Positions 153 to 17,955 of a stretch of 20,992 nucleotides of DNA are shown one piece after another. Position 1 is the stretch's first letter. The number at the start of each line of letters is the position of its first letter. A program made the position numbers and the translations under genes. A model generated the notes under the pieces. The model was not told where the DNA came from. It saw only the letters and a list, made by a program, of their open reading frames with translations, and ran no database searches. Source of the DNA: Chrysochromulina tobinii (taxonomy: Eukaryota; Haptophyta; Prymnesiales; Chrysochromulinaceae); contig JWZX01002749.1 in NCBI GenBank assembly GCA_001275005.1, positions 1 through 20,992 of the forward strand. The letters run 5' to 3'.

Positions 153-3100
153 ATGGAAACTCTTGCTGGCGGCGGCGTAGCACCTCGTGCTGCCGGCGGC
201 TATGATCCTCGCGCTGCCGGTGGCTCAGCACCTCGTGCCTCCTGCGGTGCACCGACCGCGAAGAAAGCACCGCCCGGCATGCATGCGGGGCGCTATGAGG
301 GCCTGAAGAAGAGCAAAGCTGCGGAATCGCGTCAAGAAGCGGCACGCCTAGAGGCCGAGCGAATCAAGGCCGAGGCGGCGTCGGCAGAAGCGGCACGCCT
401 GGAGGCCGAGAGGCGCGAGAAGGAGCGTCTCGCTGCCGAGAAGGCCGCGGCGATGGCGGCCAAGATCGCGTCTCGGCAGGCTGCTCTTGATGCTGCAGTC
501 AAACGGCCAACTCATGCAACGCAGCCGCGTCCGACCAGACCATCCGTCTCTGCAGAGCCTGCAGCCAAACCCTCCATTCACATTCACGACAGCACGGGAA
601 GAGCGCGCGCCTCCGCAGAGCCTGCGGCCAAACGTACCGTGGCGTTACCAAATAAAGACACGCTCGACTTTGGCATCCATGTCGTCGAGGGGTTCGCGTG
701 CACGGTCATGCTGCCTGAGGGCAAGAGCGTGGGCGACTCCCATTATCTTTCTGAGCTCTCGTCGCATAAGCATCCGAGGCTCGTCGAGTTCGTCATCGAA
801 GGGCCGCGCGATGCCGTCGACTGTCTGACAGAGGCAGTTTGGGAAGGGCAGGCAGTGCGGCTGGTTGGGCACATGTCGCCGGTCAATGCCGTGAGCCTCG
901 ATACTTTCGTCGAGCGAGGAGCCGCACTCTCGATGGGCATCCCCAAAAAGGCGGCGTTCTTCGCCTTCGTGTACCCGTGCCGCCTCCTTCACAACAGGCA
1001 GCGGAGATTGCTCGAGATCGTCGGCTCCCGGCTTGGTTCGGAGTGCCTGGTGAACACGCCGCCGTGGCTCGACCTGCTGAGTGCATCCGATGATTGCATG
1101 CTGATTGCCTCCCTCATCAGGTGAGCACGCCGCCGTGGCTCGACCTGCTGAGTGCATCCGATGATTGCATGCTGATTGCCTCCCTCATCAGGTGAACACG
1201 CCGCCGTGGCTCGACCTGCTCCTGACGGGCGGCTACGTCTACTTCGATAAGGCTGGCACGCTCCTGCGCGCGAACGCGCTCGGGCAGCTCAAGGCGAGAT
1301 CCGCAGGTACGCTCTCTCTCTGATTGCCCTTGATGAGCTCCCTCATCAGGCACGCTCTGATTGCCCTTGATGAGCTCCCTCATCAGGTACGCTCTCGCTC
1401 ATGGGCCCGTATACAGCCAACCGTCTCGCGGGTGAAGCACTGCGCGTGGCGGAGCGGCTGCAGCCGGTGACGCTCGACACGCTCGCGCACGCGGGGTTCG
1501 TCAAGTTCGGCTGGGTCTTCAAGAGCGAGTGCCCCGGTCAGACGGCGCTCTCGGAGGCCCACGAGCAGGGTGCCTTCGTGTACGCGCACAAGGACGGCTC
1601 GTACTACTTTTACCAGCTCAAGCTGCCGGGGGTGAGAAGGGCGCCCAAGCGTGCGCCTCGGCCAGAGCGCGACGAGCCGTCCGCGCATCGAGGTGAAGCT
1701 CGCTGGCGAGATGGGCCAGGCACTCGACCGCGCCATCCGGCAGGGAGCGGCCAACGCAGCCGACACGCTCGCGTACGCACGCGAGGCGCTGCGCCGTCGG
1801 CGGGAGGAGGAGGGCAAGATGCGTCACGACGTGCTCAAGATGACGCGTACCGAGGCAGATCACAATCTCTCCCTCGAGGATCGTCAGAAGCAGAAGCAGA
1901 ATCGCAAGCGCAAGCAATGGCAGTTGCGCTTGGTGCCCACGCTCCTCTCAGCACTCGTCACCTTGGGTCTGCTCTTCCTCGCGCAGGCCGCACACATTCC
2001 ACGACGACGACCCAGACGAGGTGCGCCGGTTCGCGCAGATCGGGAGCGTGCGCTTCTCGGGCTTCCGGCTGGTTGCCTCGTTCGTGTGGAGCGGACTTTT
2101 CACGTACCTCGTGTGGTAAGTCTTCTGCGTCTGCTCGATGGAAGGGCTGAGCAACACGCAGCGCCGGTGGCTGCGCCATGGGCTACTCTTCGTGCCGGTG
2201 CTCTCCGTAGGCACGGAGGCACTCGTGCTTTGGCTCGATGACTCCTCCATCGAGTCGCTCACGCTCGCTGCGATCTTGCCGCAGGCGGTGCTCTATCTCC
2301 TCCTCTTCATCGCCTTTCCAAGCGTGGTCTACTACTGGCGCATCCAGGCGGCGCGAAACTGGCTCAACAAGGTCTCAGAGAGGCAATTGCTGCGCACCTC
2401 GACCCGCAACTCGATCCACTCGAGCACATCCTCGGAGCCAGCGCCCGCTCGCGCGCGCAACTTGCCTCCTCCTCCTCCTCCTCCTCCTCCTCCTCCTGCC
2501 ACCGCCGTCCCCGCCGCTGTCCCCGCCGCCGTCCGCACCGCGACTGCTCCGAGGCGGCCGCAGATCCACGATGATCAACACGGCGCCACCCAACCACCGC
2601 CCAAGTTTAGCGCACGCACGCTGGCCTGCTACATGCGTCGGCATCACACCAAGTCGATCCCAGCGGCAGCGAGGCTTCCTAGGCCGCCGGCTCCACCCAG
2701 CCCTGCGAACAGCCCTCCGGACCCATCGTCGGAGAGCCCACTCAACTCTTTCGGCCGTTTCATGAGCGTCGCCGACTTTTTCTCGGTGTCGACGCCCGGC
2801 CAGGCCGCTTCAGTCTCGGTGTCGACGCCCGGCCCGGCCGCTTCAATCGAGGCGTCCGAGGAGCGTCACGCTGCCGCCACCGCGGCGCCGGGAGCGGCGT
2901 CGGACACACCGAAGGCCTCCGAGGCAGCCTCCGAGGCAGCCGCCCCGACGTCGTCGGTTGCCGATGTCGCCCGTCTCGTGACCGCTGTGCGCAGGGTGCA
3001 GGCGAGCTATCGACGGCTCTCGATCCAACGCAAGAGCGAGCGCGAGCTTGAGGAGCGCAAGCGGCGTCTGCTGCTCGTCTCCAAGCCGATCCTCCTCGCC

Positions 3101-4969
3101 TCGGCCGCCTATGTGCTCATCGAGCCGGTCATCGTGCACCTCGATGCGACGCCGCCGAGTGTGGCCGCGTGGAGTTGGCTGCTGCTGCTGCTGCCGGGCA
3201 GTCTTGGATCGTGGTACTCGACTACAGCGGCGGACAGGAGCGCCGGCACAAGCTCGGGCCTTTCCTTTTCGATCACGCATGCCATCTTCATATGCGCCGT
3301 GCTGCTACGCCTGCCCTACCGGTTCGCGCCGTACGCGGTCTATTTATGGGACGCCTTCGAAGCGCTCTTCGGTGCCGAGCACCGACTCTGGATTTCGCTC
3401 TGCGCCTCGGCCTCCTACTTTATCTCGCAAGTGCTCGTGCAGCAGTTGGCTCAGCGCGCGCTCTTTCTGGCCTCGCTGCTCAACTACGCGCCCCACCTGC
3501 TCTTCCCGCTGCACGTCTTCGATTTCGCGTGCTACTATGCCACCTTGGGGCTGCGCTCGTACGCGCAGCTGCGCTGGTCGTGGGTGCCCGTGACGCTCCT
3601 GCTCCAGGTCAACGTGGTGCTCAAGAACTCGGGCACCATGCATGCGGTCGTGGTCGGCATGTATCGGCTGATCTTCGAGGGCCAGTGGCGCGCTGGCCAA
3701 GGCAAGCACAGCGAGGACCCGTTGCTCAAGCTGCAGTTCCTCGCGCGCCTCGCAATCCAGTGCGACCTCGCGGACATCACCGCCATCCTCACCGTGCCCA
3801 CGGTCGTCTCGTACTTTGTCTGGCGCGACGAGTGGTTCTCGCTGCAAGGCACGGGCATCCTGCTGCTGCCGTGCGACTTGCCTACAGTCTGGCTGCACTT
3901 TGGCTTGCTGCTCGTGATCAAGCCCTTCTCCTTCATGATCGCGCGGCGCATCCTCGAAAGGAACATGTACGTTGCTCTCCTTGGCCGCTCGACCATCCAT
4001 GGCACCTCGACCATTGCCCAGGAGCTCGTCCAACAGCGTCGGGCCGCCGCCACCAAAACCTGCCAGAGGCAACGGAGCGGTCTTGGGTCTGACAGGCTCG
4101 CGCGCGCTCGGATACGACGGGTTGCGTCCGTCTTCAGGGGCGTCCCCACAGCGACCAAGGACAAGAATCGAGCCGATGGCTACTGGAGGAGCCGGCCGAA
4201 GCCGGTGTCAACCGCCGCCGCCGCCTCCGCCTCCGCCTCCGCCTCCGCCTCGCCGCCGCCATCACCTCCAGCCGTTGGCCACACGGCAGTCGCTGGCGGC
4301 AAGGCAACGATGGCCCTGCGGCCGCAGGCGGCGCAGAAGCCGCGCGCGCCTGTACAGTGTGGTGGAGCCGAGGCTGCTGGAATGGGCCACCTGAGTGTGC
4401 CTTCTCAGAGAGGGAGCTCCGACGTGGCTGCCACGTGGGACATCCCTGGCGCGGCCTCATGGGAGCATCGTGAGGTCAAGAGCACTGACGGCGCCATCGA
4501 CCCGAAGACGCTCACTGACTTCGTGGTGGGCAAGATGGAGGATCATTTGGGTGACCGCTTTGACGTCCACCGTCGCAAGCTGCTCCTCGAGGAGTTCGAT
4601 GTGGGCAACCTCGACTATGCCCACCTCTTCTACAAGACCATCCGGCGCTCGTACTTCTTCTTCGCATGCGCGACGCTCTTCGAGCTCTTCGCCGTCCTGC
4701 CTCGCCACGTGCGCGTGCCCCTTCCAGGAGCACTCGAGCAGCTCGTCATGGTCGGGGAACCGTCGATCAACGGCACGACAAGCACCCGCACGCACTGGGT
4801 CGAGCTGCCGCCATGGGCCGTGTGGGCTCGTCTTCCCACCTCGGTCACACTCGCCATCGACAACGACGCGCGATGGGCATGGGACCGGATGTCGGCCGGC
4901 AACGCAACGTATGCCGACAATTGTGCTAGCTACACTGTGCGGGGCGTCGCACTGACCCACTGGTTTTAA
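153..4969 (+). CDS. Large multi-pass membrane protein with coiled-coil N-terminus, multi-exon, family unknown
   Basis: I do not recognise the family. Supported exons are 153-1049, 1192-1306, 1387-1631 and 1693 onward, with the last long open stretch ending at 4969. The N-terminus has Gly/Ala/Pro/Arg repeats, then an Ala/Glu/Arg coiled coil (about residues 50-120) and a globular region of about 200 residues. A second basic coiled coil precedes a membrane segment (LVPTLLSALVTLGLLFLAQA). The last exon encodes about ten hydrophobic segments in two blocks, separated by a proline run (codons at 2467-2497) and Ser/Ala/Pro-rich loops. The C-terminal 170 residues are globular with one hydrophobic stretch. 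The frame changes between about 1923 and 2161, so one or two small introns or a sequence error lie there; one consistent model uses introns 1957-2020 and 2111-2161, giving about 1,470 residues. The start at 153 is supported by an upstream in-frame stop. It is probably a lineage-specific membrane protein; function unknown. Confidence 0.7.
1050..1191 (+). repeat. Intron made of two 71-bp tandem units carrying a copy of the downstream exon
   Basis: Units 1050-1120 and 1121-1191 differ at one base (GTGAAC against GTGAGC). The first 29 bases of each unit copy the start of the downstream exon (1192-1220). The remaining 42 bases contain TGATTGCATGCTGAT and end CTCCCTCATCAG. Removing all 142 bases (GT...AG, phase 0) joins SECL to VNTPPWLDLLLTGGYVYF in an open frame. 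Retention gives a stop codon at the second unit, and removing only one unit shifts the frame. Confidence 0.85.
1307..1386 (+). repeat. 80-bp intron of two related units with hairpin ends
   Basis: The intron starts GTACGC and ends CATCAG, splitting a glycine codon (G at 1306, GT at 1387-1388) and restoring the frame through TLSLMGPYTANR. It consists of a 43-bp unit (1307-1349) and a 37-bp unit (1350-1386). Both contain CTGATTGCCCTTGATGAG and both end CTCCCTCATCAG. The downstream exon begins with the same GTACGCTCT as the intron. Each unit can fold TGATGAG against CTCATCA around a four-base loop. The donor of the second unit is changed to GCACGC. Confidence 0.8.
1632..1692 (+). other. Ordinary 61-bp intron
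   Basis: GTGAGA...CGAG, phase 0, joins LKLPG to VKLAGEMGQALDRA and moves from one open frame to the next. It contains no copy of the repeated intron cores found elsewhere in the window. Confidence 0.7.
1923..2161 (+). other. Unresolved exon junctions in the membrane-protein gene
   Basis: The upstream frame reads to LLFLAQAAH, while the coding signal continues one base out of phase as TFHDDDPDEVRRFAQIG and then meets TAA at 2117-2119. In-frame splice options for the first break are 1923-1986, 1933-2020 and 1957-2020. Options for the second are 2111-2161 (51 bp) and 2116-2151 (36 bp, with a consensus GTAAGT donor). None is decisive from sequence alone, and a one-base sequence error at the first break is also possible. 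Confidence 0.5.
2464..2500 (+). repeat. (CCT)n microsatellite coding polyproline
   Basis: About eleven CCT codons in a row encode a proline run in a loop between the first and second hydrophobic blocks of the membrane protein. It is followed by imperfect CCGCC-rich repeats coding for Ala/Pro/Val. Confidence 0.9.
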
Positions 4970-5339
4970 CGGTTTACCACCGGTTGAGCCCAGCTACGGC
5001 GAAGACATCGTGCAGGGCCCAGGGGCTGTGCCTTCTTCCAACCGTTCTTGTTGACATATCTTCCTCCGTCGATCGTCCTGTAGGTTTACATTATGCGTAC
5101 ACTCGGAGTCCCCGAGTAGCGAGTTTTGTGCCCCTCAGGGGGCCTACAATTCACACTGAATTCACACTGTTACGGTTTTAGGGCGTTATCGGAGCTGCAT
5201 ATCGGAGCGGCGCGGGATGCGGGATGCGGGAGTCGGAGCGGCGCGGCATCACCGTTTGGCGGAAAACGCTCTGATCGACGCGGGCACGTCACATCTGGGC
5301 AGTGCATCGCACGACGCCCCGAACTCACCCTATCGAGCC
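4970..5339. other. Intergenic region between the membrane-protein gene and the FAD monooxygenase gene
   Basis: About 370 bases when the next start is placed at 5340. An imperfect short duplication (GGGATGCGGGA...GGAGTCGGAGCGGCGCGG) lies at about 5203-5245. The downstream reading frame is open from an ATG at 5217, so 5217-5339 may be 5' leader or 41 extra residues. No other gene was seen. Confidence 0.4.
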
Positions 5340-7799
5340 ATGAAGAAGGCCGCCACCTGGCGCGGCCGGGTGGCTGGTGCAGTCGCTCGAGATTTGGTTG
5401 CAGCAGCAGCAGCTGCGGCTGCTCGCACGCGTGCACGCGCTGACGGCAGCGAGAGCGGCGGCAGGCCGGAGACTAAGAAGCAACGCATGCAGGCCTCCGC
5501 GCGTGTTAAACAGCACGAGCGCGAGCCCAACGCGTGGGAGCGGGATATGGCTGCCCAAGCTGCTTTGGTCGCCGCGCGCCTCAAAGCACGGGCGGACGGC
5601 AGCGGCAGCGGCGGCGACGAGCATGCGAAGGCGTTGAGGAGGGACGCGCTCGAACGGCTGAGGCTGCAGCGGGAGGCCCTCGAGGCCGAGCGCATCGGCG
5701 GGCGTCGCGCCGCGCGCATCGCCATCGTCGGCGCGGGGCCGGCCGGCCTCTGGCTGGCTGTGCTGCTCGCACGCAAGCACGCGACGCTCACGCTGACCGG
5801 CAATGCGGTGAAGATTACGCGGAACAGCCACGCGCCACAGATTGACGTCTACGAGCGCCGTCTGCCCGCGGCCGAGGCAGGCGCCGCCGTTCGGAGCGCT
5901 GACGAGGCGAACAAGTATGATCACAGCAGCGACAACAGCGAGGCGACGAGTAAGGCACTGCACGGGAGCCGCAACATCATCCTCGCGATCACGCAGCAGA
6001 CGCAGGACCTGCTCAACCGACACCTGTGCGGCACGGCCTCCTCGCATAGCCATCACGCCTTCGCGCCCACCTCGCGCATCGGCGATATTGAACGGATCCT
6101 TGCCGCCGAGTTTGAACGGTACTGCGCTGCCGGTTTCGGCCAGCTCACCTACGGCGCCGTCGTGGGCGATCCGGACGAGTTCCACAGCGCGCGCCGCGGT
6201 GGCTACGACGTGGTCTTCGTCGCCTCGGGCAAGAAGGGCGTGCCTGACGAGTGGCGCATCGCGAGGGGCCTCGAGTCCATCGTTGAGGGCACGGCGGCAG
6301 CGATCCTTGTCCAGGTACGTTGATTGCATGCTGATGGCCTGCCTTGCATGCAAGTGCTCACCACAGCGCGGAGGACCTGCCTTGCATGCAAGTGCTCACC
6401 ACAGCGCGCTCGACTCGCCGCGATCCTCGTCCAGGTACGTTGATTGCATGCTGATGGCCTGCCTTGCATGCAAGTGCTCACCACAGCGCGGAGGACCTGC
6501 CTTGCATGCAAGTGCTCACCACAGCGCGCTCGACTCGCCGCGATCCTCGTCCAGTACTGGGGCGCCGCTACCGACCTCGGCCGTCTGATGGACGTCTTGG
6601 TCGGGTCGGCGAGCCGCACGATCGCGCCCGCGCGCGTCTACTTACGGCCCGGAGCCGATGCGGGCAGCGGCTGGGCGTGGCTGGTGGGCCTGCCTGAGCC
6701 GCTCACCGAGGCCGTCCGCCGCGGAGTGGAGCGCGCCCGACATGGCGACCGACCGCGTGGCGTCAGCGAGGCGCCGAGCCACTCCTCCTTGGCCCAGGCA
6801 CTCCAAGCTATGCTCGACATGGGGAGGGACGCCGCTGCCAACGGGAGCGTTGGCGGCAGGGATGCCTGTGGTGGTGGTGGCGGCGCCGGTGGCGCCGGCC
6901 AGCTCACCTACGGCGCCGAAGGTGAGGGCAGCACCGCGCCGTCGCGAGCGCCCTGGCCAAGCATGACGCCGCCCACCTTCGCCGGGGAAGTGGCTGCGCT
7001 CGAGGCGCTGCGTATGCTCGACACAACGCTCCGGGCGGCCGGTGCACGCGCAAGCTGGACGGAGGCGAGCTTTTGGCGCTCGTCGAGCGTCTTGCATGCG
7101 GCGGGCGCCGTGGCGGGCGCAGGCGCCGTGGAGGGCGCGGGCGCCGTGGAGGGCGCGGGCGCCGTGGAGGGCGCGGGCGCCGTGGAGGGCGCGGGCGCCG
7201 CGTTGGGCGCGAACGTGCCCGGTCCGACGCTGCTCGTGGGCGACACGTGCTGTGGGCGCCCCTTTTGGCTCGGCTCGACGCTCAACGGCCACTTCGCCGA
7301 CTTGGCGCATCTGACCAGCTCGACGAGCTGCTGGGATAGCTGGGATTGGGCCGCCGAGAGAGAGGCACCTTTCAAGCCGTGGCTCGATCGGATGCGGACG
7401 CTGCGCAAGTGCGGCAACACGCCGGCAGTCGCCGCCTTGCCCACCAGGATCCGACGTGAGCTCGCCAAGGCCCTGGAAGCAGGCAGGGCCGCGGCCGACG
7501 GAGCCAAGGCCTTGGAAGCAGGCAGGGCCGCGGCCGACGGAGCCAAGGCCTTGGAAGCAGGCAGGACCGCGGCCGACGGAGCCAAGGCCTTGGAAGCGGG
7601 CAGGGCCGCGGCCGACGGGACGGCGTCACCACGCACGACCACGAGTCCGAAGCCGTCGAGGCTGTTGGCGCCCCCGCATGCGCCCTCGGCGCCGCGGCCA
7701 ACGATAACCCTCACGACCGAGCTGGAGCTCGCGCCCGACGCGCGCGTTGGTGCGCCACGGGGCACCTCGCTGCCCAAACTGCTGACGCGCACTAAGTAG
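5340..7799 (+). CDS. FAD-dependent monooxygenase-like protein with Gly/Ala and EAGRAAADG repeats
   Basis: Two exons (5340-6314 and 6555-7799) give about 739 residues; an in-frame ATG at 5217 would add 41. After an Ala/Arg-rich N-terminus, the dinucleotide-binding motif IVGAGPAGLWLAVLLAR lies at about residues 129-145. SRNNIILAITQQT-type sequence follows (the protein reads GSRNIILAITQQTQDLLNRH), then YDVVFVASGKKG near residue 289, which occupies the place of the DG motif of class A flavin monooxygenases. The second exon has LLVGDTCCGRPFWLGS (GD at about 554-555), fitting the GD motif that contacts FAD ribose. The best guess is a PHBH/MICAL-like FAD hydroxylase; the substrate is unknown. A Gly/Ala/Val/Glu repeat sits just before the GD motif, and four 13-residue repeats (KALEAGRAAADGA) sit near the C-terminus. 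No targeting signal is obvious. Confidence 0.75.
6315..6554 (+). repeat. 240-bp intron of two identical 120-bp units, introner-like
   Basis: Units 6315-6434 and 6435-6554 are identical as read. Each starts GTACGTTGATTGCATGCTGAT, or 21 bases counting GTACGT plus the 15-base core, and ends GATCCTCGTCCAG, a near copy of the upstream exon end GATCCTTGTCCAG (6302-6314). Inside each unit a 33-base subrepeat occurs twice (6338-6370 and 6376-6408 in the first unit) and contains the perfect palindrome CTTGCATGCAAG. Removing 6315-6554 joins AAAILVQ to YWGAATDLGRL in phase 0. Retention puts an in-frame TGA three codons in, so splicing is required. Confidence 0.85.
7104..7211 (+). repeat. 18-bp coding minisatellite, six units
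   Basis: The unit GGCGCCGTGGAGGGCGCG is perfect four times (7122-7193), with one degenerate copy on each side. It encodes a GAVEGA repeat placed immediately before the GD motif of the FAD monooxygenase. Confidence 0.9.
7467..7622 (+). repeat. 39-bp coding minisatellite, four units
   Basis: Four nearly identical 39-base units (7467, 7506, 7545, 7584) encode KALEAGRAAADGA; the third has Thr for Ala. The unit size keeps the frame. It probably forms a short helical linker in the C-terminal tail. Confidence 0.9.
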
Positions 7800-8124: not shown

Positions 8125-9631
8125 CTATACATGCTCAATACATGCCCTGCGCACCGCTGGGGCCTGCTCGACGGCGCTCCAGTTGAAAAGTTTACGCGGC
8201 CCAAGCAGCGCCTCATTTTCCTTAAGTGCCACAAAGCACTGCCGAGGCATCGTCCGTAAGCGCAAGCCCGGAGCATTCTTGGCCACTCCTCCGTAGCCGG
8301 CCGACTCTAGCAGTGCATCGTGTAGCAGTCCATCGTGGCAACTGAAATCTGAGCTGCCAGTTCGCACGCCGATGCACGGGGAGGAGAGCACACTCTTGTT
8401 CGGCATGCGATCGAGCGGAGCCCTCCCTTTCCGATGATGAAAGTGGCACAGGAGCAGGGCGTGCGAGCCGTCGCTAAGGTGGGACACGCCGCCTTTGTCG
8501 ATGCGCAGGTTGCAGTCCGGCGGAGCTAATGCGTCATCGAGCTGAACTGGCACCACAAGGTGCGCCACACCAAACGGCGTGCCAGGGGCGGCCGCGGCAT
8601 CGAGCACTGCCGCAGAGAACGAGAATCGGTACCCCATAGCAGCGAAGTACTGCCCCCACTCGTCGTAGCTGGCGCGGTGGCGGCGCAGCGGACCGAAGAC
8701 GGCCCTCAGCGCGCCCAAGTTGATCACGGGCATCACGTGCGAGAAGAAGGCGGCGGTGCTGTAGACGGCGATTGGGCCATACGAGAGCTGCATCGGGACC
8801 TCCGTGACCTGCGCACCAAACCAACCGACCAATCAAATCTAAGCTGCGGGAAGACGTGTGCGCACATGGGCGCAGTCCGACTCGAGCGATGCGCGCGCGG
8901 GGATGGGGGCGGCGGCCGGCACGCCGACGAGCAGCACGGCACAGCTGTGTGAGATTACCTGCACCGCCCCGATGGGCGCGCTGCGACTCTCCCCCAGCTG
9001 CCGCGTGAGCGCCGCAAACATGTGCCCAGACACCATGACCTGCAGGGTGGGGGTGAGAAGGGCACGTCACAATGAGCTGGAAGAGACTGGACACACTCGC
9101 AGAACACGCGCAGCCACACAAAACAAGGTGCTTCAGAGGCACACGCGCAGGCTGTCGTGCGGGTCGCACATCGTTGTCAATCCAGCCCCACCACGCATAC
9201 GGCGTGATAACCTCGGGAACGAGTAGTGCGGCCAGCGGCTTCATGTCGGTTATCTTCCGATAGTCGAACCCATTAACGTGGTGCATGCTGGCGCTCAAGA
9301 CGGTCTGGAGCCGTGCGCACAGCGTCCCCCAAGGAAGCGAGATAAACTCCACGTTAGACGGCATCGGCAGCAAGTGCGCTGGTGGGCTTGGGTCGCCCAC
9401 GATGGCCACGCGGATCGTCGGGCTGGCGCCGACTGATCGCAGGAACAGAGGGAGGCAGGTGGAGTTCCACTGCGCCGGGCCGTACAGCCAACTGACCAGT
9501 AGAAGTAGCGGCTGCGGCACGGCCGGCAGCAGCGCCGGACGCGCCACACGGACAGCGGACGGAGAAGAATTATTGAGAGGGCGCGCTGGCGAAGTGACAG
9601 GCGCTGAGAGCTTGTTAGAGAGCCTGTGCAT
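8125..9631 (-). CDS. DUF6625-type glycosyltransferase-like protein, three exons
   Basis: On the minus strand the exons are 9631-9170, 9039-8959 and 8808-8125, giving 408 residues. The introns (9040-9169, 130 bp; 8809-8958, 150 bp) have GT-AG ends and both junctions restore one frame. After a proline-rich start, a beta-strand-like LLLLVSWLYG opens the catalytic domain. The signature GFDYRKITDMKPLAALL, then YAWWGWIDNDV (about residues 146-155), matches the DUF6625 pattern of a lysine-proline stretch followed by W-G-x-x-D-x-D. D152-N153-D154 would be the nucleotide-sugar/metal DxD motif, and it is split from the next residue by the first intron. Conserved-looking exon 3 parts include the AFFSHVMPVINLGALRAVFG and DEWGQYFAAMGY regions. 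It probably acts in the Golgi or ER on glycans; donor and acceptor are unknown. No clear membrane anchor is seen, so the N-terminus may be incomplete. Confidence 0.75.
8809..8958 (-). other. Intron 2 of the DUF6625-like gene
   Basis: Read on the minus strand, GTAATC starts at 8958 and GCGCAG ends at 8809. It joins APIGAVQ to VTEVPMQLSYG in phase 0. An earlier possible acceptor (CCGCAG, about 35 bases upstream on this strand) would add an in-frame-incompatible segment, so 8809 is preferred. Confidence 0.75.
9040..9169 (-). other. Intron 1 of the DUF6625-like gene
   Basis: Read on the minus strand, GTGCGA starts at 9169 and a C-rich tract leading to CCTGCAG ends at 9040. It joins GWIDND to VMVSGHMFAAL in phase 0. 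It is an ordinary intron, without the repeated cores seen in genes 1, 2 and 8. Confidence 0.75.
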
Positions 9632-9957
9632 TTTTGTCGCGCATCACACGTCCGTGAACCACGAGGGTTTCTCGTCCTGTGAAAGGTTGAAACGGCTGTG
9701 AGCCGGAGCTTGCGGCACGTCCAACCCGAGTAAATCAGGTACGGTGCGTACCGGTGTACCTGCTTTAACTGTTGGAATCATCGAATCACTCGGGGAATCA
9801 CTCAAGGGAATCACTGCGAGAGGCTCCCCACACAGGCACGACTTCTTCACCTGTGAGTTGGAAATGATCAAGATGTGACTGAAAAAAGGAGCTCTGGATC
9901 TCCGTCCGCGACCCCACTCCCACTCCTGTGATTGCCAACCTTTTTCGCGAGAGGCGC
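9632..9957. promoter_or_regulatory. Divergent promoter region with inverted and direct repeats
   Basis: This separates the divergent starts of the DUF6625-like gene (-) and the WW-like repeat gene (+). GGTACG (9738-9743) and CGTACC (9747-9752) form a perfect inverted repeat around three bases, nested with AGGTAC (9737-9742) and GTACCT (9756-9761). The octamer GAATCACT occurs three times (9783, 9795, 9808) with 12-13 base spacing. These are candidate factor-binding sites for one or both genes; no known motif is assigned. Confidence 0.45.
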
Positions 9958-10551
9958 ATGGCTCCTCTCGCGATTCGATGGTTCGCACTGCTGCCAGTGC
10001 TTCTCTTGCTGCAGGTAGGCGGCCTCATGCCAGCGCCTCCGCCAACGCGCGGCCCTTTGCGGGGCTCAGCCATTCAACTTGGCCTTGTCTTTCCCGACTC
10101 GCAGGAGGGCACGCCAGCTGACCCGCGATCTTGGCGCAAGGGCACTGTGGGCGACTCGAGCACCACCTACTGGTGGAGAAAAGGCGTCCATGAGTCTGAC
10201 GCTCCAGAAGTTTCCAACACACCGCCAGCAGAAGACTGGAAGGTGGGCAAGCTCGAAAATGGGCGCGAGTTCCTGTGGCGCGAGGGCAATGACCCCAACG
10301 ACCCTGAGATTGCGCTGCAGGGATCGGAGGTCGAGGCCACGTCCGCCCCGGATACGTCGCCCGACGGCTGGCGAATCGGCGTGCTAGCGAGTGGCAGGAG
10401 GTACCTATGGCGAGGCAGCGCTGAGGATCCGGAGGTGCGCTTCTGGGACTCGTCAACGCTCGAATCGGGCAAGGTCTTCTGGTACACAGGCGATGGCCAC
10501 GTGAGCCTAACCGATCCCTTTGACCTTCGCAGCCGGCAAGAGCTCATATGA
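9958..10551 (+). CDS. Small leader-bearing protein with degenerate WW-like repeats
   Basis: A single 197-residue exon from the ATG at 9958; an ATG at 9928 would add ten residues ahead of the hydrophobic leader and is less likely. The leader (LAIRWFALLPVLLLLQVGGL) looks like a signal peptide or the first part of a plastid-targeting sequence. The mature part carries three or four related blocks: WKVGKLENGREFLWREG, WRIGVLASGRRYLWRGS, and a third reading LESGKVFWYTGDGHVSLTDP. Each has a Trp, then (S/N)GR or SGK, then an aromatic pair, and the last ends Asp-Pro as WW domains do. They are called WW-like with caution because the second Trp is not at the usual place. The function is unknown; binding of proline-rich partners is only an inference. 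The rest is acidic and Ser/Pro-rich. Confidence 0.65.
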   Translation: MAPLAIRWFALLPVLLLLQVGGLMPAPPPTRGPLRGSAIQLGLVFPDSQEGTPADPRSWRKGTVGDSSTTYWWRKGVHESDAPEVSNTPPAEDWKVGKLENGREFLWREGNDPNDPEIALQGSEVEATSAPDTSPDGWRIGVLASGRRYLWRGSAEDPEVRFWDSSTLESGKVFWYTGDGHVSLTDPFDLRSRQELI

Positions 10552-10902
10552 GGGAGGCCACAATCGTCGGTTTGGGCGAGATATGCTTTGTTCTTATCGT
10601 ATGTCGAAGATCGAGAGCCAGCGCAGAGCCAGGAGCAGAGACAGCCGGGGTAGTAACGGAAATATGCGCGCCTTTCCCTTTGGGGCGACGAGTATAGAAA
10701 TGATATAGTTAAACGCCTTCTATACCCCGTACGTGTGGGCTACACACACGCGCGGTACGGCGTTCCGCCCGCACGAGCGTCGAGCCACGCGGTCGACCAT
10801 CATCAGTGAGTCGGTTCATGTACACGGCCGTCCCGCCCCCTGGCACCTCCCCCTCTCCCCATGGCGCTATCGCCATTTGCGATGCCGTGTGCCCGTGTCG
10901 TC
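10552..10902. other. Convergent intergenic region, no gene seen
   Basis: About 350 bases between the WW-like gene (+) and the stop of the next minus-strand gene. Short open frames occur on both strands but have no motif. A lower-GC stretch at about 10575-10720 may hold 3' ends of both transcripts. Confidence 0.4.
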
Positions 10903-11751
10903 TCAAAACGGATTGACGCCCGTCATCGAAAACCCCTTGAAGGATGTAATGAAGCCACCGAAGATGAGCCACGTGGCGCCTGCGGTGGCTACCGCGACCG
11001 CCCCCCAGCGTGCGTTCACTGGCACCGCCTCCACCACATCGACCACCGCGGCGGCGCGCTTGATATCATCAGCGCTGGCACCCCGAAGGCCGATGGGATT
11101 GCTCGTGAGCACGCCAGGGTTCTTCGTGATGACCTCGAGCGCCTCCGCCTCGCTCATCTTCTCGGTGAGGACCCGCCAGCTGCCGTCAATGTGGAACGGC
11201 TTGTTCAAGTACGGGAGCACCAGGGCAGAGTTGCGAGCAATGGCCTCGAGCGCTGCGTCCTCGTTTGGGTAAACACTGAGGACGCGATTGTACAGGATGC
11301 GGACGCCAGGACGGGATTCCTTTAGGTCATCGTCTACTAGCAGCGCTTCAATCGAAGGCGGCAGCGGCGTGTCGAGCTCGCGAAACGGCACACCCGTCTG
11401 TGCGGCCAGCGCCCTCAGCGCCTCTGCTTGCTGCAGCTGCCTCTCGGGTTGGAACTGAAACTGCCCTCGCTCCGCGCCAGTCGCACCCTGCGTGACGACC
11501 CACCCTTCGATGACGTCGTACTCGATCGATTTGATCGATGGGCAATGACGAGTTCCGTCCACAGATAATTCGAGCACATTATCAGCCGCCATACGAAAGA
11601 GCAACGTGTCCTCCTCTAGGTCCACTAGCTCTAACTCTTGAGCCGCTACCATGGTCACGAACGGGTGAGCTCGCACAGGCCGCAGAACTCGCACGGTGCT
11701 CAACGCTGGATGCGCCGCTGGCGCGAAAAGGACTAGGAGTTGAAGCATCAT
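10903..11751 (-). CDS. Leader-bearing protein with mTERF-like helical segment and C-terminal membrane anchor, unknown function
   Basis: A single exon on the minus strand. The start is placed at 11751 (or the adjacent ATG at 11748) because MMLQLLVLFAPAAHPALS is a good signal-peptide-like leader; the open frame also reaches an ATG at 11898. From 11751 the product is 282 residues. The middle has a Gln/Glu/Ala helix (about 115-135). Then comes a segment with NEDAALEAIARNSALVLPYL and EALEVITKNPGVLTSNPIGL, two helix pairs ending in a hydrophobic-proline pattern like mTERF repeats. A single hydrophobic helix (WGAVAVATAGATWLIFGGFI) lies near the C-terminus. The arrangement suggests a plastid or endomembrane anchored protein. 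Calling it mTERF would overstate the match: only one or two motifs are visible, whereas mTERF proteins have many. Confidence 0.7.
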   Translation of the reverse strand: MMLQLLVLFAPAAHPALSTVRVLRPVRAHPFVTMVAAQELELVDLEEDTLLFRMAADNVLELSVDGTRHCPSIKSIEYDVIEGWVVTQGATGAERGQFQFQPERQLQQAEALRALAAQTGVPFRELDTPLPPSIEALLVDDDLKESRPGVRILYNRVLSVYPNEDAALEAIARNSALVLPYLNKPFHIDGSWRVLTEKMSEAEALEVITKNPGVLTSNPIGLRGASADDIKRAAAVVDVVEAVPVNARWGAVAVATAGATWLIFGGFITSFKGFSMTGVNPF

Positions 11752-12064
11752 AATTGCTCGAGCGAAGGCACCAAGGGGCTGGGTGCAGGGGCTGGGAGAG
11801 CCTTGTTGGAAGGCACGCACGTTTCGTAATTTTCGCGATCTCAGTTTCTCATGAAATACTCGATGAGGCACCCCCCCAATCTCAATACGTTGATTCATAT
11901 TGAAGAAGAGATTTGCTCATGTTTCGTACAGTCCAGTACATTGTACTTGACATCGAGCGCGAAGTTGCGCTCAACACGGCGTGTGTTTCGTTTCCCGCTT
12001 GTGCGGCTCGATGCGTCGGGACGCCGGCACGCGAGCGAGGCGCGCCGCGCGCGCGGCCCGATCG
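11752..12064. promoter_or_regulatory. Divergent promoter region between the mTERF-like and TylF-like genes
   Basis: About 310 bases, AT-richer than the surrounding genes, between divergent starts. AGTAC (11935-11939) and GTACT (11943-11947) form an inverted repeat around three bases. A C-run lies at about 11871-11877. Both genes have alternative upstream ATGs inside this region (11898 on minus, 11981 on plus), so part may be leader sequence. Confidence 0.4.
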
Positions 12065-15016
12065 ATGCGTCTTGTGGGTTGCAAGCTATTGCAGCTCATC
12101 ATCGTGCTCCAAGCTTCCAAGCTCGCTCAGGCTGATTGGTCAGCACCGCATGGCTCGAATCAGACGTCGGGCACGGCACTCAACAACCCAATAAACGCAA
12201 CAGGCAACGCGACAGGCAACTGCTGTCCCCCAAGGGCAGAATCTGGGCGGATGGGGCGCTGCGATTTCATGGCTCAAAAAGCAGGATGCGCTCACGCCCG
12301 AACGCGGAATTTCTGCCCAATCGCGTGCGGATCATGCGCCATCTGTGATCCGGCCTTGCGTGAGATATATCGACAGTTTTACGTGCGGACAGCTCGCATG
12401 CGGGCCAAGGCGGCGCCGAGTGAGGTTGCCTTTACAAACAATTACAACGTCTCATTGGCAGAAGCGCGGAATATGGCCGTAAAAATGGGCAAAGATCTCT
12501 CCAGGCGTTCCCGCCTATTGCTGGTAGACGTGGTCATCCGCGGACTCTCTTTCTCCCACTATGTTAACGATCCTGGCTTCGACATGGTGCCAACGAAGCC
12601 CATCTTCGATTATATACAGTTTAGCCGCACCCGCACAACACAGCACCTTTGGCCTCGCTACGGCCATTCGTTGGTGGGAGTCGACGGGATGAACCAGGTG
12701 GCAAGGCTTATAGAAAAAGTCCTCGAGAGAGGCGTGCCGGGGCACTTTGTAGAGGCAGGCGCCTGGAAGGGCGCCAACGGCATTCTGGCTCGCAAGTTGT
12801 TCGACGCGTCGCCCCAATCGCAAGACAATGCTCGCATGGTCTACTCGTTGGACTCGTTTTCATGGTTTCCTAAGACGGCAAACAAATCGTACTACGCCGA
12901 TCGTGGCCTTATCGAGACCTTTCATTTTAACACTACGATGAAATGGCACGAGAACTTCTATGCCGACATCAGCAAGGTGAAGCAGATCCACTTGCAGTTT
13001 GGCATCGACGTCGGGCACGAGTCGTCACGAGTGAGATTGATCCAGGGCTACTTTCAGCAGACTGCACCACAGCTTGCCAGCTTCCTGCAGAGTACAGGCG
13101 AGCGGATATCGGTGCTAGTCATCGACGCCAACTCTTACCAAGGCACATGGGAGTCACTGATGACGCTGTATCCTCACGTGTCCATCGGCGGCTACGTATT
13201 CATTGGCGACTACGGCTCGTTTCCCTCACGGCGCGCCACGGATGACTTTCGTGGATGCATCGGCATCGACTCGGAGCTCAACTTCTTCTTGCCGCATAGC
13301 TCACGGCACGGCCGGGAAGGCCAGGTGTACTGGAGAAAGTACCAAGAGGCGCCCTCCGACAAGAGGCTGCACGCTCGTTGCGACCCGATGCCTTCTCTGA
13401 AGGTTGGGTTCGGAGCCAACCAAGAAGAATTCTTCCTCGTCGCGCGCGTGACGACATTCAAGGGCAAGCGCTTCTGGCCCGTGATGAAAATGCCGTTGCT
13501 GAATGAGTCAGGCCGACCGGAAACAAGTGAATCCCTAGCGCGATTCATGTATCGCCCTGCAGCCATGAACATGTTCCGCGCCGCAGCTAGTGCGTGGAGT
13601 GCTGCTTCGAAGTCAACGTGCTTCGTTGATGTGCTCCTTTACGGCCTCATCCGGTCAGATGCGATGCTCGAGTACACGACGCCAACGCTACGTTCGCACG
13701 TCCTCGCCCCCATGCAGGGATACGGCTGCCTGCATGTGCACGCCTACTGCCTCGAATCGCAGTGCAACGTCTCGACGACGCACAGGCTTTTAAGTGGATT
13801 GAACCCCGTCACAGTGAACGTGACCCAGTCGGTCCCACCTGCAGTAGAGCTTGGCAAGCACGTAGGCACGGAATGGAACGCGCGGTATTTGAATGGAGAA
13901 GACAGTCGAATCGCACGTATGATCGCGAAAGACTCCCGCAAGAGGCGCGAAAAGATCATCAATCGCTGGCGCAGCGGCGTGCACAGCCTGTGGCTCGCTT
14001 GGACTGCTGCACGACATAACACGCCGGCCAAGTACGGCGAGTCACCGTCTGGTCTGGTGGTGGTGTGTCGTATCGACGTCGCCTTCGTTGCAAAGCCCCT
14101 TTACAATCTATGGGCCTCAAACGCCTGGGAAGAGCAGGAGCAGCGCACTGTGTTCGTGCCCAGATTTCAGCACTATGGTGCCCTGAATGATCGGTTCATG
14201 TACGGCTCGGCCATGGTGATGAAGACGCTCGTGATGGCTCGCAAGGAGCAAGCATGGCTAGGAGAAACGTTCGCGGAGCGTGCCATGTGCGCTGCTGTCC
14301 TCGAGCACAACGTATCCGTGAGCACAACGAATGTCGAGTTCGTGAGAGTGCGCGAGGACCTGTTCATCCCAAAGGTTGACAACGCCACCGTCTTGCACGA
14401 TGGCGCTTCTACGGATGGTAAGTGGTGGCACGGGCACAAAGTTGGAATGTGTCTGAGCTGTATTGCGTCCAATGGCCGTTGCCACGGCAGTGAGGAGGTG
14501 GCGTCCAATGGCCTCAATCCCTATCATTCTTTCTGCCCAGGCGATATGTGTCGGTTGCTCACCTCTTTCAACGCTCGTCTGGGAGCGTTTATCGACCGGG
14601 CTCAGCTGGCCGGCCTCCTCACCCTGGCACGTTCACGACCTGCCGTCTTCGCCGCGTTCCATCGGCGCATCGCGAAAGGAACATCGCGACTGGAGTCGGA
14701 ATCGCGACCATCCCGATCATCGCGTAAAGGAAAGACGAAGTCGGTCAAAACGACGCAAACGAGCGTGGCCGAGACCAACGATGCAAAAAAGGCCAAAGAG
14801 GAGCTGGACGCGTTGACCAGGTCAGACCTCATGGTTATCACCGAGGCCGAGGAGCGTATGGCGCATTTTCGTGAGCTACACAAGGAAAAGCTACGTGACC
14901 GTAAACGCCGCCGCCCGAGGGCAACCGTAAGCACTGCAATCACAACCACAGTCAGTCAGTCAGTTAGTCAGTCAGTCAGTCAGTCAGTCAGTCAGTCGAG
15001 TACTTATACGTTATAG
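12065..15016 (+). CDS. Secreted fusion protein: ShKT-like, TylF/MycF-like methyltransferase and glycosyltransferase-like regions
   Basis: An intronless frame of 983 residues from 12065, chosen because MRLVGCKLLQLIIVLQASKL is a clear signal peptide; the open frame begins at 11981. Residues about 53-95 have six or more cysteines in an ShKT-like pattern, ending NFCPIACGSCAIC. Residues about 195-400 fit the TylF/macrocin O-methyltransferase family: HFVEAGAWKGANG (SAM-binding loop), a GYFQQT segment, VLVIDANSYQGTWESL, then GGYVFIGDYGSF. Residues about 515-785 resemble a glycosyltransferase-like region (DUF7796-type): VVVCRIDVAFVAKPL and YGALNDRFMYGSA. The tail is a Lys/Arg/Ser coiled coil ending in a Ser-Val-Ser-Gln repeat. 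Several Asn-X-Thr/Ser sites fit passage through the secretory pathway. Likely work is modifying sugars or glycoproteins in ER/Golgi. In TylF proteins the metal-site loops usually read D-x-D-x-Y and D-D-Y-G; here they are D-A-N-S-Y and G-D-Y-G, so activity is uncertain. Confidence 0.8.
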   Translation: MRLVGCKLLQLIIVLQASKLAQADWSAPHGSNQTSGTALNNPINATGNATGNCCPPRAESGRMGRCDFMAQKAGCAHARTRNFCPIACGSCAICDPALREIYRQFYVRTARMRAKAAPSEVAFTNNYNVSLAEARNMAVKMGKDLSRRSRLLLVDVVIRGLSFSHYVNDPGFDMVPTKPIFDYIQFSRTRTTQHLWPRYGHSLVGVDGMNQVARLIEKVLERGVPGHFVEAGAWKGANGILARKLFDASPQSQDNARMVYSLDSFSWFPKTANKSYYADRGLIETFHFNTTMKWHENFYADISKVKQIHLQFGIDVGHESSRVRLIQGYFQQTAPQLASFLQSTGERISVLVIDANSYQGTWESLMTLYPHVSIGGYVFIGDYGSFPSRRATDDFRGCIGIDSELNFFLPHSSRHGREGQVYWRKYQEAPSDKRLHARCDPMPSLKVGFGANQEEFFLVARVTTFKGKRFWPVMKMPLLNESGRPETSESLARFMYRPAAMNMFRAAASAWSAASKSTCFVDVLLYGLIRSDAMLEYTTPTLRSHVLAPMQGYGCLHVHAYCLESQCNVSTTHRLLSGLNPVTVNVTQSVPPAVELGKHVGTEWNARYLNGEDSRIARMIAKDSRKRREKIINRWRSGVHSLWLAWTAARHNTPAKYGESPSGLVVVCRIDVAFVAKPLYNLWASNAWEEQEQRTVFVPRFQHYGALNDRFMYGSAMVMKTLVMARKEQAWLGETFAERAMCAAVLEHNVSVSTTNVEFVRVREDLFIPKVDNATVLHDGASTDGKWWHGHKVGMCLSCIASNGRCHGSEEVASNGLNPYHSFCPGDMCRLLTSFNARLGAFIDRAQLAGLLTLARSRPAVFAAFHRRIAKGTSRLESESRPSRSSRKGKTKSVKTTQTSVAETNDAKKAKEELDALTRSDLMVITEAEERMAHFRELHKEKLRDRKRRRPRATVSTAITTTVSQSVSQSVSQSVSQSSTYTL
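14949..15000 (+). repeat. (CAGT)n microsatellite at the 3' end of a coding region
   Basis: About twelve CAGT units, with one TAGT variant, encode a repeating Gln-Ser-Val-Ser tail, which is a 12-base coding period. The stop at 15014-15016 lies a few codons later. Changes by one unit would shift the frame and alter the last residues. Confidence 0.9.
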
Positions 15017-16007
15017 CGGTTGACCCCACGCAGGCCACGGCAGCGGAGCCGTCCTTTGAGACGGAGTGTGGTGAGCGCTACGGGTGAGCGCGGGGGGACC
15101 GCGACGTACCTTAGACATACCTGGCCGACTGCACGCCCGACTCTTTACCCGACTCTCGACCCGACTCCACCTCTCGCGTCTCGAGCCGAGCTCATAGGGG
15201 GCTCCGGCCGCACCGCCGGCCGCTACGCGTCTCGGCGTCTGCAGCGCGCGCCTTCATTTCGCCGACCGCCTTTGAGCAGGCGCGGGGAGGCGCTCTGGCA
15301 GCGGGTGGCGGCAGGGTCGGGTTTGCAGGGGGCGGCCTCTTCTGAGTCGGCCGCGGGGAGCGGTCGGCTCCGGGGAAGCGGCTGTTGAGTCGGCCGCGGA
15401 TTCGGTCGTCGCGCAGTCGTGCGGGTGCATTTTGGTGTAAGCATGGGTCCATTTGGTGGGTTGGGATGGTTGTGAGGTTCGTCTGTGTGATCCGTGTGCC
15501 CGTGTGTCCCCTTGAGTCCCGTTGTGTCGCGGCTCCCCAGCGCTCCCCCATCTCTTAACCGACTGACTAGTGTGACTGCGGAATTCCTGTTTACTGCACC
15601 TTTTTACGTTCAGTATGAATACAGTTGACGTGACTCGTGAGCAGGACGGATGGAGTGAGTCAGCGTCTCTTCAGGGGGCCGCGACGTCAATACTCGTCGC
15701 CCCTTGGCTCGTCCATCTGGGGGTTCACCGCCCATGTCGGCGGGCGCTCTCCCTCCCGAGCTCGTATACTGCCCGCTCAGCTGTGTGAGTGAATGTGAAT
15801 GTGTGTCTGTGTGATTTCCCACGTAAACAGTACTCGAAATGAGACACATGCAGACGGAGATCTGAGAAACAGCCAAAAAAAGAGAGAGTGCGGCGAGACC
15901 CATGTATACGAGCCTGAACCGCGCAGTTGTCGCGTCTGTCGTGTTAACGTTCACACATGAATTCATATGTACACAGAAGATCGAGGGATCTTGCATGTAG
16001 TGCACCT
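15017..16007. other. About 1 kb without a supported gene
   Basis: Open frames exist on both strands (for example 15192-15551 and 15610-16005, minus) but are basic, low-complexity and motif-free. The first 400 bases are very GC-rich. About 15413-15535 is strongly G+T-biased on the plus strand. About 15780-15960 is more AT-rich and probably holds the promoter and 5' leader of the next gene. Two copies of a short phrase (GGGACCGCGACGT near 15097 and GGGGCCGCGACGT near 15675) occur. Confidence 0.4.
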
Positions 16008-17955
16008 ATGTCGGTACATAGTCGATGCTGCTGGATCGCTGCGGCAGCGGTGGCGATGCTGGCCACTGCCGGCGAGAAGGCGCCATCGTGTCTCACTCGG
16101 CCGTCGGAGCACACTGCGGAAGCTCTGTCACAAACTCTGTTGCAAGCCGATGACCATACCATCGCATGGAACCTAGACGGGTGGACCGATTCGGAGCGAG
16201 CCTGGCTGCTGCGCGGAGCGCTCGAGGAGAGATCTCTTGCTGGCGTGCAGCTCGTGGCCGCCCACGGCTTGACGCACCTCGACACGGTTAGTCTGAAAAC
16301 AATGCTTGATGGTGCAATGAGCTGGTGCGCCGCACGCTCGCTACGCTTTCGGCTGCAAGACTTTTTGATTGGGCGCGGCTCCGTGTGTGCGATAACTCGC
16401 GTCTGCCATGCCCCTGAGCAAGAAATTGTGCAAGAGCTTCTGACCCGCGTGCCGACACTCAAGCTGCGCGGCGCTCGGCGGCTCTACGAGAGCCTCTGCA
16501 ATCGGTTGCCTGGAGCCCTGGAGACGGGTCTTGTGAGTGAGCATGATGTCGCCAACGAATTCATGGATGACATAGTGCTTGACCTCTGCGCGCCCTTTCT
16601 AAGTGCTCTCGTCATGGCTGGCGGGCAGCACCCCGACCTTGACTCCTCGCCTCTCGCCACCAACTTTGCGACGATGGCGCACGGGATTCCGATGCTCGAG
16701 CTCCTACTGGAGGCAGGCTACCTTCTCGACCAGGAAGGGAAGGGTGGAGCCTTCTCCGACCGTTGCCTCGCGTGCCCACAGTGCTGCCTCAACGACGGCG
16801 TCGCGTCGACGGGCGACCGAGCGATGCGCTTCAGTGCGCAACATGCTGCTGCTGCTTCTGGACACGATGCCGTGCTGTCTTGGCTTGAGCAGCGCCAGCC
16901 ACCTCATCCGACGGCGCGCTCGATGCTGTTCAGATCGGAGTACGTTGATTGCCAGTGACGGCCTGCCTTGCGTGAAAATGCTCACCACGGCGCTCTCGAT
17001 GCTCTTCAGATCCGAGGCGCTCGAGACGGCGCCGATCTGGGCTGATGCGAACGAGCAAGCAGTCGCGTCCGCCCATGCCACTTCGGGCGGATGGCAATCC
17101 AATGCCGCTCCGCCATCCTCTGCAGACACCGATACCGGCAGGTCCGTGGCCAATCCTTGCGCCGAGCCGAGCTTTGCATGCAGGTGCGACATTCATTCCA
17201 TTTCCGGCAAGGACGTCGTGCGTGACCCGATCGCCTTCATCGAGCGGTACCTCCGCGGCGCTCAGCCGGTCATCATCCGCGGCCTCCTCCACGCCGACCC
17301 GGCGCTTGCCCCTGCTACAAGAGCCTTCGGGAAGGCAGCCTTGCTCGAGCGCCTCGGGGAGACCGTCTGGGAGGTTGGCGAGATTCCGTACGAGGCGCGG
17401 TACCAGGTGAACGGGTCTGAGCCGATGACGCTACGAGCGTTCGTTGAGAAGCATCTGGATGGGTGCTCGGCTACCGCCGCCACTGACGCTGACACCGCCG
17501 CTAACGCTGACACCACCGTCGACTGCGCCCCTCGCTATGTGTTTGATGTCCACTTTTGGCGTGGCGACGTGCAGGTTAGCGTGAAGAAGCTCAAGTTAGT
17601 ATCGCTTCCGAGCTGGGCCACGGCGGCGAGGGTGCGCCCTGCGTCTCATGGCGTGCAATTCTTTCTGGGCCCAGCAAACTCGGGCGCTCCCATGCATTTT
17701 CATGGGGCCGCGTACAATCTGCTCGTCCACGGCCGCAAGCGCTGGCTGCTCACGCCACCCGGGCACTCGACCTTTTCGATGCTCCCCGCGAGAAAGTGGC
17801 TCTCAACGCGACTCCCGCAGCTCCGCGCGCGCAATGCAAGCGTGTTCGAGTGCGAGCAACACGCTGGGGATATGCTGGTGCTACCCGACCTGTGGGGACA
17901 TCTCACCATTAACATGGAGACCTCCGTCGGCGTCGCGCAAGAGTTTGCGCACTAG
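16008..17955 (+). CDS. Secreted JmjC/cupin-8 domain protein with ankyrin-like N-terminal half
   Basis: Two exons (16008-16939 and 17010-17955) give 625 residues. The start at 16008 gives the leader MSVHSRCCWIAAAAVAMLA; an ATG at 15957 would add 17 residues before it. Residues about 40-305 are helical with ankyrin-like pieces: HGIPMLELLLEAGYLL, and AAAASGHDAVLSWLEQ near 278-295. After a Ser/Ala/Thr linker the cupin part runs from about 400: DPIAFIERYLRGAQPVIIRGL, then APMHFHGAAYNLLVHGRKRW (H540 and H542), and GDMLVLPDLWGHLTIN (H608). This fits cupin-8/JmjC hydroxylase-fold proteins such as the JMJD8 type, which are luminal rather than nuclear. The first metal motif reads H-x-H where active enzymes usually have H-x-D/E, so Fe(II)/2-oxoglutarate chemistry is doubtful. 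Cellular substrate unknown. Confidence 0.8.
16940..17009 (+). repeat. 70-bp introner-like intron inside a 76-bp exon duplication
   Basis: The intron starts GTACGTTGATTGC, identical for 13 bases with the intron at 6315, and shares a further GGCCTGCCTTGC stretch and GCTCACCAC. It ends CTCGATGCTCTTCAG, a near copy of the upstream exon (CTCGATGCTGTTCAG, 16919-16933). Phase 2 splicing moves from one open frame to the other (GA at 16938-16939 plus A at 17010). The exact duplication period is 76 bases, so six duplicated bases remain in the mRNA, giving RSESEALE. Confidence 0.85.

Follow-up and report, generated by a model that had tools for sequence, protein, structure and literature searches.

The analysis presented here concerns a 20,992-nt stretch of the genome of the haptophyte Chrysochromulina tobinii (contig JWZX01002749.1, positions 1 to 20,992, assembly GCA_001275005.1), referred to in its whole length as the window, and four short introns in three of its genes that share sequence with one another. 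We propose, with a probability of roughly 0.6, that spliceosomal introns of this family are made when pre-existing short intron sequences (introners) are copied into exons by homology-primed copying. The key result is that the splice sites stand in register with an exon duplication that flanks the element, so that splicing takes out the element together with one exon copy and the message is unchanged. The loci tested have this structure and this register, their tails are inherited from one copy to another, and conserved proteins continue across the removed piece (splicing by homology).

Splice sites in register with a duplicated exon

Instances of a 26-nt core were sought in the window and in 82 stretches fetched from the genome (L-numbers such as L017 or L088 label these stretches). 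After skipping those too close to a stretch end, 117 usable instances were found in 80 of these 83. Twenty stretches had been chosen around one core and 60 short ones from the first places listed in the genome core search; only two were chosen irrespective of the core, and the 117 instances are therefore not a random sample. Direct repeats were sought on both sides of each instance, with flanks of different loci paired as a control. A flanking duplication with a score of at least 15 is present at 60 of the 117 instances, compared with 4 of 343 mispaired flanks. In the 75 loci that score at least 12, the duplication is 13-51 nt long (median 25, quartiles 19.5-31.5) with a mean identity of 95%, and it is perfect in 31.

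In 45 of these 75 loci, a GT within the duplication is accompanied by an AG exactly one period downstream, versus 1-9 loci when the period was shifted by 1 to 9 nt (14 shifts) and 8 of 75 in the antisense equivalent of the test; a splice site is thus co-opted from the target duplication, as in introners. With near-duplicates (L044, L066, L092) dropped, the register is seen in 45 of 74 loci, and the shifts have a mean of 5.3 and a maximum of 8. When GC donors are included (74 loci), the donor lies at the end of the left copy in 25, at its start in 24 and inside it in 6. For 44 spliced loci the period shows no preference modulo 3 (14, 14 and 16), and among the 19 loci without a register site the period is divisible by 3 in 10 and not in 9. 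The duplication accounts for the way in which an insertion can leave the protein unchanged.

The general anatomy is exon copy, element, exon copy, and tandem units repeat the element plus exon copy. Two mirror layouts have the 26-nt core in common. In layout 1, the element begins with GTACGTTGATTGCC directly after the exon, and the copied exon end gives the AG (introns 3 and 4 of the window). In layout 2 it is the start of the exon that is copied and gives the GT, and the 3′ splice site comes from the element, whose last part is a pyrimidine tract and CAG. Introns 1 and 2 are built in this way from elements of the CTCCCTCATCAG family. At a handful of loci both splice sites come from the exon copy. 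There are 43 distinct 5′-complete copies on 37 stretches, window included (46 rows minus one near-duplicate locus and two array units). An AG precedes 39 of them, and 29 are accompanied by a copy of their own exon that is anchored at its last base (score at least 10), compared with 1.2% of 1,786 mispairings. A sequence-independent search for direct repeats with in-register splice sites was too noisy for a count to be drawn (335 at shift 0, 346 at +1, 310 at +8); as far as seen, the high controls come mostly from simple repeats.

Two kinds of insert depart from this pattern. Five of the 19 loci without a register site, read by eye as unspliced (L017 +8289, L023 -1378, L034 -8085, L049 and L096; periods 69, 45, 63, 66 and 63, all divisible by 3), are duplication-flanked core fragments without in-register splice sites, and are perhaps in-frame coding insertions of the same element. 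The intron-like insert at L017 -6453 has exact 34-nt exon copies and would use a GA..AG splice pair.

Splicing was judged by protein homology rather than from RNA. Kinesin domains were matched exon by exon at 130 places in the genome, and introns were located from gaps in the domain alone, irrespective of the core. Gaps between matches that continue along the domain provided 28 stretches from 36 candidate gaps. Eight of the 28 are not clear introns, being in-frame loops or frame breaks (L099, L100, L101, L107, L108, L111, L114 and L122), and L117 was excluded for its complex boundaries, leaving 19 introns whose GT and AG were placed by eye in the kinesin frame. In all 19, both sides of the join read as kinesin motor, for example SHAIFSLELDLK before and VKGKTFSPKLHFVDLAGSE after it. 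A family motif is found in 14 of the 19; their 2,539 bp hold 73 sense motifs and 1 antisense (the five motifs counted were picked after the family sequences had been viewed), and 2,795 bp of flanking exon hold none on either strand. Exon copies scoring at least 12 occur in 5 of the 19 introns and in 0 of 342 mispairings, and those scoring at least 10 in 7 of 19 versus 2.3%.

Other proteins tell the same story. In the alignment of spliced L088 to ornithine aminotransferase (1gbn, E 7.7e-40), EPIQ and GEAG meet at the junction with no gap, and L094 aligns to dual-specificity phosphatases (PF00782, 1.1e-20), again gapless at the junction. Ten spliced loci were scanned against Pfam: nine match nine different families (E at most 0.01), three of these below the curated cut-off, and one, L078, has no match. 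The junction is crossed by matches at or above the cut-off in L088, L094, L058 (ankyrin), L067 (fatty-acid hydroxylase) and L085 (NUDIX, exactly at the cut-off), and by matches below it in L055 and L074. In L046 and L052 the Pfam match lies only past the junction; that of L046 is also crossed by a weak ABC1-family chain match (3.3e-6). The protein homology predicts, in short, that the elements are spliced out of transcripts as introners are.

It is scarcely credible, and for the loci tested by homology not tenable, that satellite-like exonic repeats or a misassembly have been taken for introns. Arrays of near-identical units, and equal-scoring kinesin genes on contigs C3 and C2170, would fit such an artefact; introns located by homology, restored reading frames and conserved proteins across the junction do not. 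The two kinesin genes have equal scores and match ranges, perhaps as a result of assembly redundancy or recent duplication, and the same may hold for L040 and L044, which look alike.

The cores are abundant in the whole assembly (53.15 Mb, 2,253 contigs; GC content 63.9% in the 178 kb of fetched stretches L017-L036), although the following counts are of sequence sites and not of introns, many lying within arrays. The search for the two cores that a preliminary description of the window, made from its sequence, had called for returned 782 exact sites for the 15-mer TGATTGCATGCTGAT (367 + 415 on the two strands) and 105 for the 13-mer GTACGTTGATTGC (45 + 60), with none for either reversed control. 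With up to two mismatches, TTGCATGCAAGTGCTCACCACAGCGC has 293 + 342 sites (reversed control 0). With up to one mismatch, GATTGCCTCCCTCATCAG has 1,208 + 1,287 = 2,495 (reversed control 0) and TGATGACCTCTGATGACC 2,445 + 2,459, overlapping tandem matches counted (reversed control 1). Two viral-contig scans with the cores gave no matches. Similar introns occur in at least five non-paralogous genes, which places them among introners in the broad sense (PMC9860276). The analysis supports the interpretation already offered for the window, in which these introns are the work of a copied element: similar introns lie at many unrelated sites, the motifs recur in kinesin introns but not in the neighbouring exon stretches, and intron 3 has a sister on another contig. 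The core TTGCATGCAAG and the window units TGATTGCATGC have the palindrome GCATGC in common, which is found in both element families; many 5′-shortened copies start near it.

Introners of Micromonas and Aureococcus are of the DNA-transposon type. A non-autonomous, MITE-like cut-and-paste transposon of that sort could account here, too, for hundreds of similar copies and for a splice site co-opted from the target duplication, and the cited passages of PMC9860276 give it as the majority view for introners. The four element forms, however, have no terminal inverted repeats (scores of 1-2, not above shuffles), and the duplication, instead of being short and of fixed length, spans 13 to 51 nt. The classical transposon reading was rejected on these two grounds, and we hold it to be very improbable.

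Inherited tails and a proposed route of copying

The 3′ tails of the introns provide a record of descent. In L020 the tail of L034 and L074 precedes a copy of the locus's own exon, the tail of L070 recurs in L085, and an unusual double core is common to window intron 3 and L072, which lies on another contig. Upstream of the shared suffix, the exons of tail-subfamily members look unrelated and are just 18-40% identical. The end of a target exon matches the tail of another member of its subfamily over a mean of 6.4 nt (52 ordered pairs) versus 2.6 nt for 1,404 other pairs, a value that 0 of 5,000 label shuffles reached; a rule-based grouping, which uses the tail outside the own exon copy, gives 6.4 nt over 16 ordered pairs versus 3.1 over 322. 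The rare start GCACG occurs in 7 copies, 5 of which sit after GAGCAG, versus 2 of the other 39 (Fisher 0.0003; 46 rows including a few array units). That some copies retain a relative's tail and sit at targets matching it suggests homology-primed copying. An example of a tail-matching site is GAGGAGCAG.

On the reading we favour, a new copy would arrive between two copies of a 13-51 nt stretch of the target exon. A broken or stalled target strand would base-pair, along a few nucleotides, with the end of an intron that already exists, copy that intron and rejoin the target upstream of its point of departure; the exon stretch would thereby be duplicated, and the new exon copy would provide the missing splice site. 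The copied stretch would become the tail of the new intron and might offer homology for later moves. Arrays in which element and exon copy are repeated together could arise afterwards, by slippage from one exon copy to another; the cost would be small, since only the intron gets longer. The template could be either DNA or excised intron RNA. More tentatively, introns may retarget themselves in that a stretch of host exon, once it is their own 3′ tail, supplies the homology that steers the next copy to matching exons, without a transposase. If true, such tail-guided spread would be a route of intron gain that does without transposon ends.

Alternatively, excised intron RNA might be reverse transcribed at a nicked exon (target-primed), with variable target duplications as for LINEs and SINEs (long and short interspersed nuclear elements); the 5′ end of the RNA would be intron base 1, and internal priming would give variable 3′ joins. 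We regard this route as possible, if doubtful. It would explain why layout 1 copies begin exactly at the 5′ splice site and layout 2 copies end exactly at the 3′ one, but selection for splicing could equally yield exact ends. The low exon identity upstream of the shared suffix (18-40%) means that the donor exon was not co-copied; together with the strand bias of the kinesin-intron motifs (73 sense to 1 antisense) and the 26 reverse-transcriptase domain matches in the genome, 22 of them over the cut-off, this speaks for an RNA intermediate. LINE/SINE-type retroposons have a variable target duplication of about 7-20 nt and a common 3′ tail, poly-A or a simple repeat. The duplication found here is variable but longer, with a median of 25 nt. 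A common 3′ tail is absent, and the tails are exon-derived and locus-specific. Moreover, the five inserts read as unspliced (L017+, L023-, L034-, L049 and L096) are internal pieces without either end.

The junctions of 33 copies with a shortened 5′ side were compared with a pasted control. Exon and element overlap by at least 3 nt at the join in 7 of the 33 versus 2.2% in the control; as a rule for the 5′ join, microhomology held only in part. Unmatched nucleotides stand at many of the junctions (20 of 33), as ordinary repair without any mobile element would have it. Tandem exon duplication (the AGGT model), or repair of a staggered break with filler, would then have made the introns, their similarity stemming from common intron repeats as a frequent filler; passages of PMC3443670 describe both direct repeats at gained introns and tandem duplication as known routes. 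We nevertheless consider this origin unlikely. Tandem exon duplication brings no foreign insert, whereas element sequence stands between the copies here; that insert comes from families with hundreds to thousands of sites, and tail inheritance and matching targets are unexpected from random filler.

It is important to point out that several observations weigh against homology-primed copying of introners as the origin of these introns. The copying step itself is one that we infer, and the evidence consists of one assembly and protein homology. At 42 of the 117 core instances there is no duplication at a score of at least 12. Among the 75 loci with a duplication, the only in-register pair is GC..AG in 11, and 19 lack a register donor of either kind (GT or GC); such loci are explained in part by imperfect alignment, a GA donor or unspliced inserts. 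Five of the 19 kinesin introns are without motifs, and a detectable exon copy is present in just 5 to 7 of them. The four tail subfamilies in the label-shuffle test were set by eye from full tails, and the rule-based grouping leaves 8 distinct pairs, with at least 6 nt in common in five and 2-3 nt in the two L042 pairs and in L034-L047. Lastly, the 20 of 33 5′-shortened copies with unmatched nucleotides at the junction show no overlap there, and microhomology is therefore not general.

Introns and genes of the window

The features of the window are collected in Table 1. Taking out the four introns joins open frames in all three genes, and if left unspliced each of the three frames runs into a stop within the first intron listed for its gene. 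The preliminary description had placed introns with shared sequence at these positions in unrelated genes, and both the positions and the shared 15-, 13- and 12-mers proved correct: TGATTGCATGCTGAT lies at 1091, 1162, 6321 and 6441, GTACGTTGATTGC at 6315, 6435 and 16940, and CTCCCTCATCAG at 1109, 1180, 1338 and 1375; introns 1 and 2 of the first gene close with the copies at 1180 and 1375, respectively. The minus strand of the window contains no copy of any of the three. The predicted proteins have no Pfam family in common; among the pieces scanned, only that of the third gene has one, Cupin_8.

Table 1. Genes, introns and intron parts in the window (coordinates on the forward strand)
Feature	Position	Strand	Remarks
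Gene 1, first exon	153..1049	+	open frame; no Pfam family; exon-intron layout past ~2000 less certain
Intron 1	1050..1191	+	two tandem 71-nt units, each exon copy + element; GT from exon copy, element end CTCCCTCATCAG
Copy of downstream exon in intron 1 (GTGAACACG...CTGCT, 29 nt)	1050..1078	+	more copies at 1121-1149 and 1192-1220 (the last is the exon itself)
Element unit 1 of intron 1, ..TGATTGCATGCTGATTGCCTCCCTCATCAG family	1079..1120	+	unit 2 at 1150-1191
Intron 2	1307..1386	+	first element TGATTGCCCTTGATGAGCTCCCTCATCAG at 1321-1349, preceded by a 14-nt copy of downstream exon start (one mismatch); second element at 1358-1386, preceded by a shortened copy
Gene 2, first exon	5340..6314	+	final 18 nt (6297-6314) are the sequence copied within intron 3
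Intron 3	6315..6554	+	two identical 120-nt units, each beginning GTACGTTGATTGC
Gene 2, second exon	6555..7799	+	open frame
Gene 3, first exon	16008..16939	+	open frame; Cupin_8 domain sits in second exon
Intron 4	16940..17009	+	~54-nt core beginning GTACGTTGATTGC, then most of an imperfect ~29-nt copy (16987-17015) of upstream exon end 16911-16939
Gene 3, second exon	17010..17955	+	open frame; Cupin_8

The two tandem units agree at all but one of 71 bases in intron 1 and at all 120 in intron 3. Intron 3 has two TTGCATGCAAGTGCTCACCACAGCGC cores per unit, and the last 18 nt of each unit (6417-6434 and 6537-6554) repeat the end of the upstream exon and give the AG. In gene 3, if the duplication is read correctly, cutting out intron 4 keeps six nucleotides (two codons) beyond what removal of the whole 76-nt insert would leave.

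Other parts of the window are of less certain structure. Near 2000-2150, gene 1 perhaps contains one more intron or a frameshift, and its end is overlapped in another frame by a 949-aa open frame (2120-4969) without a Pfam family. On the minus strand, a gene at 8125-9643 with a weak DUF6625 match seems to hold introns without family motifs; a frame test for introns in it gave no open solution. A long open frame at 11951-15016 has a TylF-type O-methyltransferase domain (E 8.5e-33).

Introners in Chrysochromulina and elsewhere

The gain of spliceosomal introns is a long-standing question, and here the element, the target and the join can be read at many sites in one compact genome. The published Chrysochromulina tobin genome has about one intron per gene (PMC4580454). 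Since exon copies lie within introns, exon boundaries may be wrongly placed in the gene models of such genomes. Published systems are compared in what follows as the cited passages describe them.

A survey from 2022 reports introners in 175 genomes (PMC9860276). Its method required similarity near both intron ends, a search criterion rather than a biological one; the 5′-complete copies found here have site-specific 3′ ends and lack such similarity. The criterion may thus miss introns whose last 13-50 nt are site-specific, and subfamilies with shared tails would pass it. The nearest known relative may be family 5 of a Chrysochromulina sp. metagenome-assembled genome, TARA_PON_109_MAG_00232, described there with 4-bp duplications, no inverted repeats, its own 5′ splice site and a borrowed 3′ one (PMC9860276). 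It is perhaps of the same genus, it likewise lacks inverted repeats and brings the 5′ splice site while borrowing the 3′ one, and layout 1 may be of the same kind. Its duplications are of 4 bp, however, whereas those seen here are variable, at 13-51 nt, and come with a mirror layout in addition; the two are set apart by description and not by sequence.

The preliminary description had regarded the combination of very small size, tandem units and exon copying as unusual. The exon copying is the important part: what is duplicated is a long stretch of the target, and the splice sites keep its register. Small size is not new; both it and the borrowing of splice sites are published, with introner families of median lengths from 30 to 654 nt (PMC9860276). 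The introners of Micromonas and Aureococcus, too, take one splice site from the element and the other from the target duplication, but they are described with inverted repeats and short duplications, neither of which is found here (PMC9860276, PMC7789003, PMC12403724). Introner elements of Amoebophrya are genome-wide repeated introns with direct repeats at their borders and no transposase gene inside, and in these respects resemble the present family; unlike it, they are reported to have direct repeats of 3-5 nt, inverted repeats of 8-20 nt and mostly non-canonical splice sites (PMC7789003).

Among systems of other kinds, intron gain by tandem exon duplication or break repair also draws splice sites from exon-derived direct repeats (PMC3443670); here, by contrast, the repeats enclose a member of a large repeat family. 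The stwintrons of Hypoxylaceae and Xylariaceae are likewise sequence-similar introns spreading within one genome, but their insertion is described as seamless, without a target duplication (PMC12403724). Direct repeats of 4-30 bp near intron borders have been reported generally (PMC11782384). In open-licence full texts, the supplement of the 2022 survey lying outside this scope, no account was found of haptophyte introners with long exon duplications in register, nor of targeting by matching tails. Introners are thus already known, Chrysochromulina included, and what is new here is the long in-register duplications and the inherited tails.

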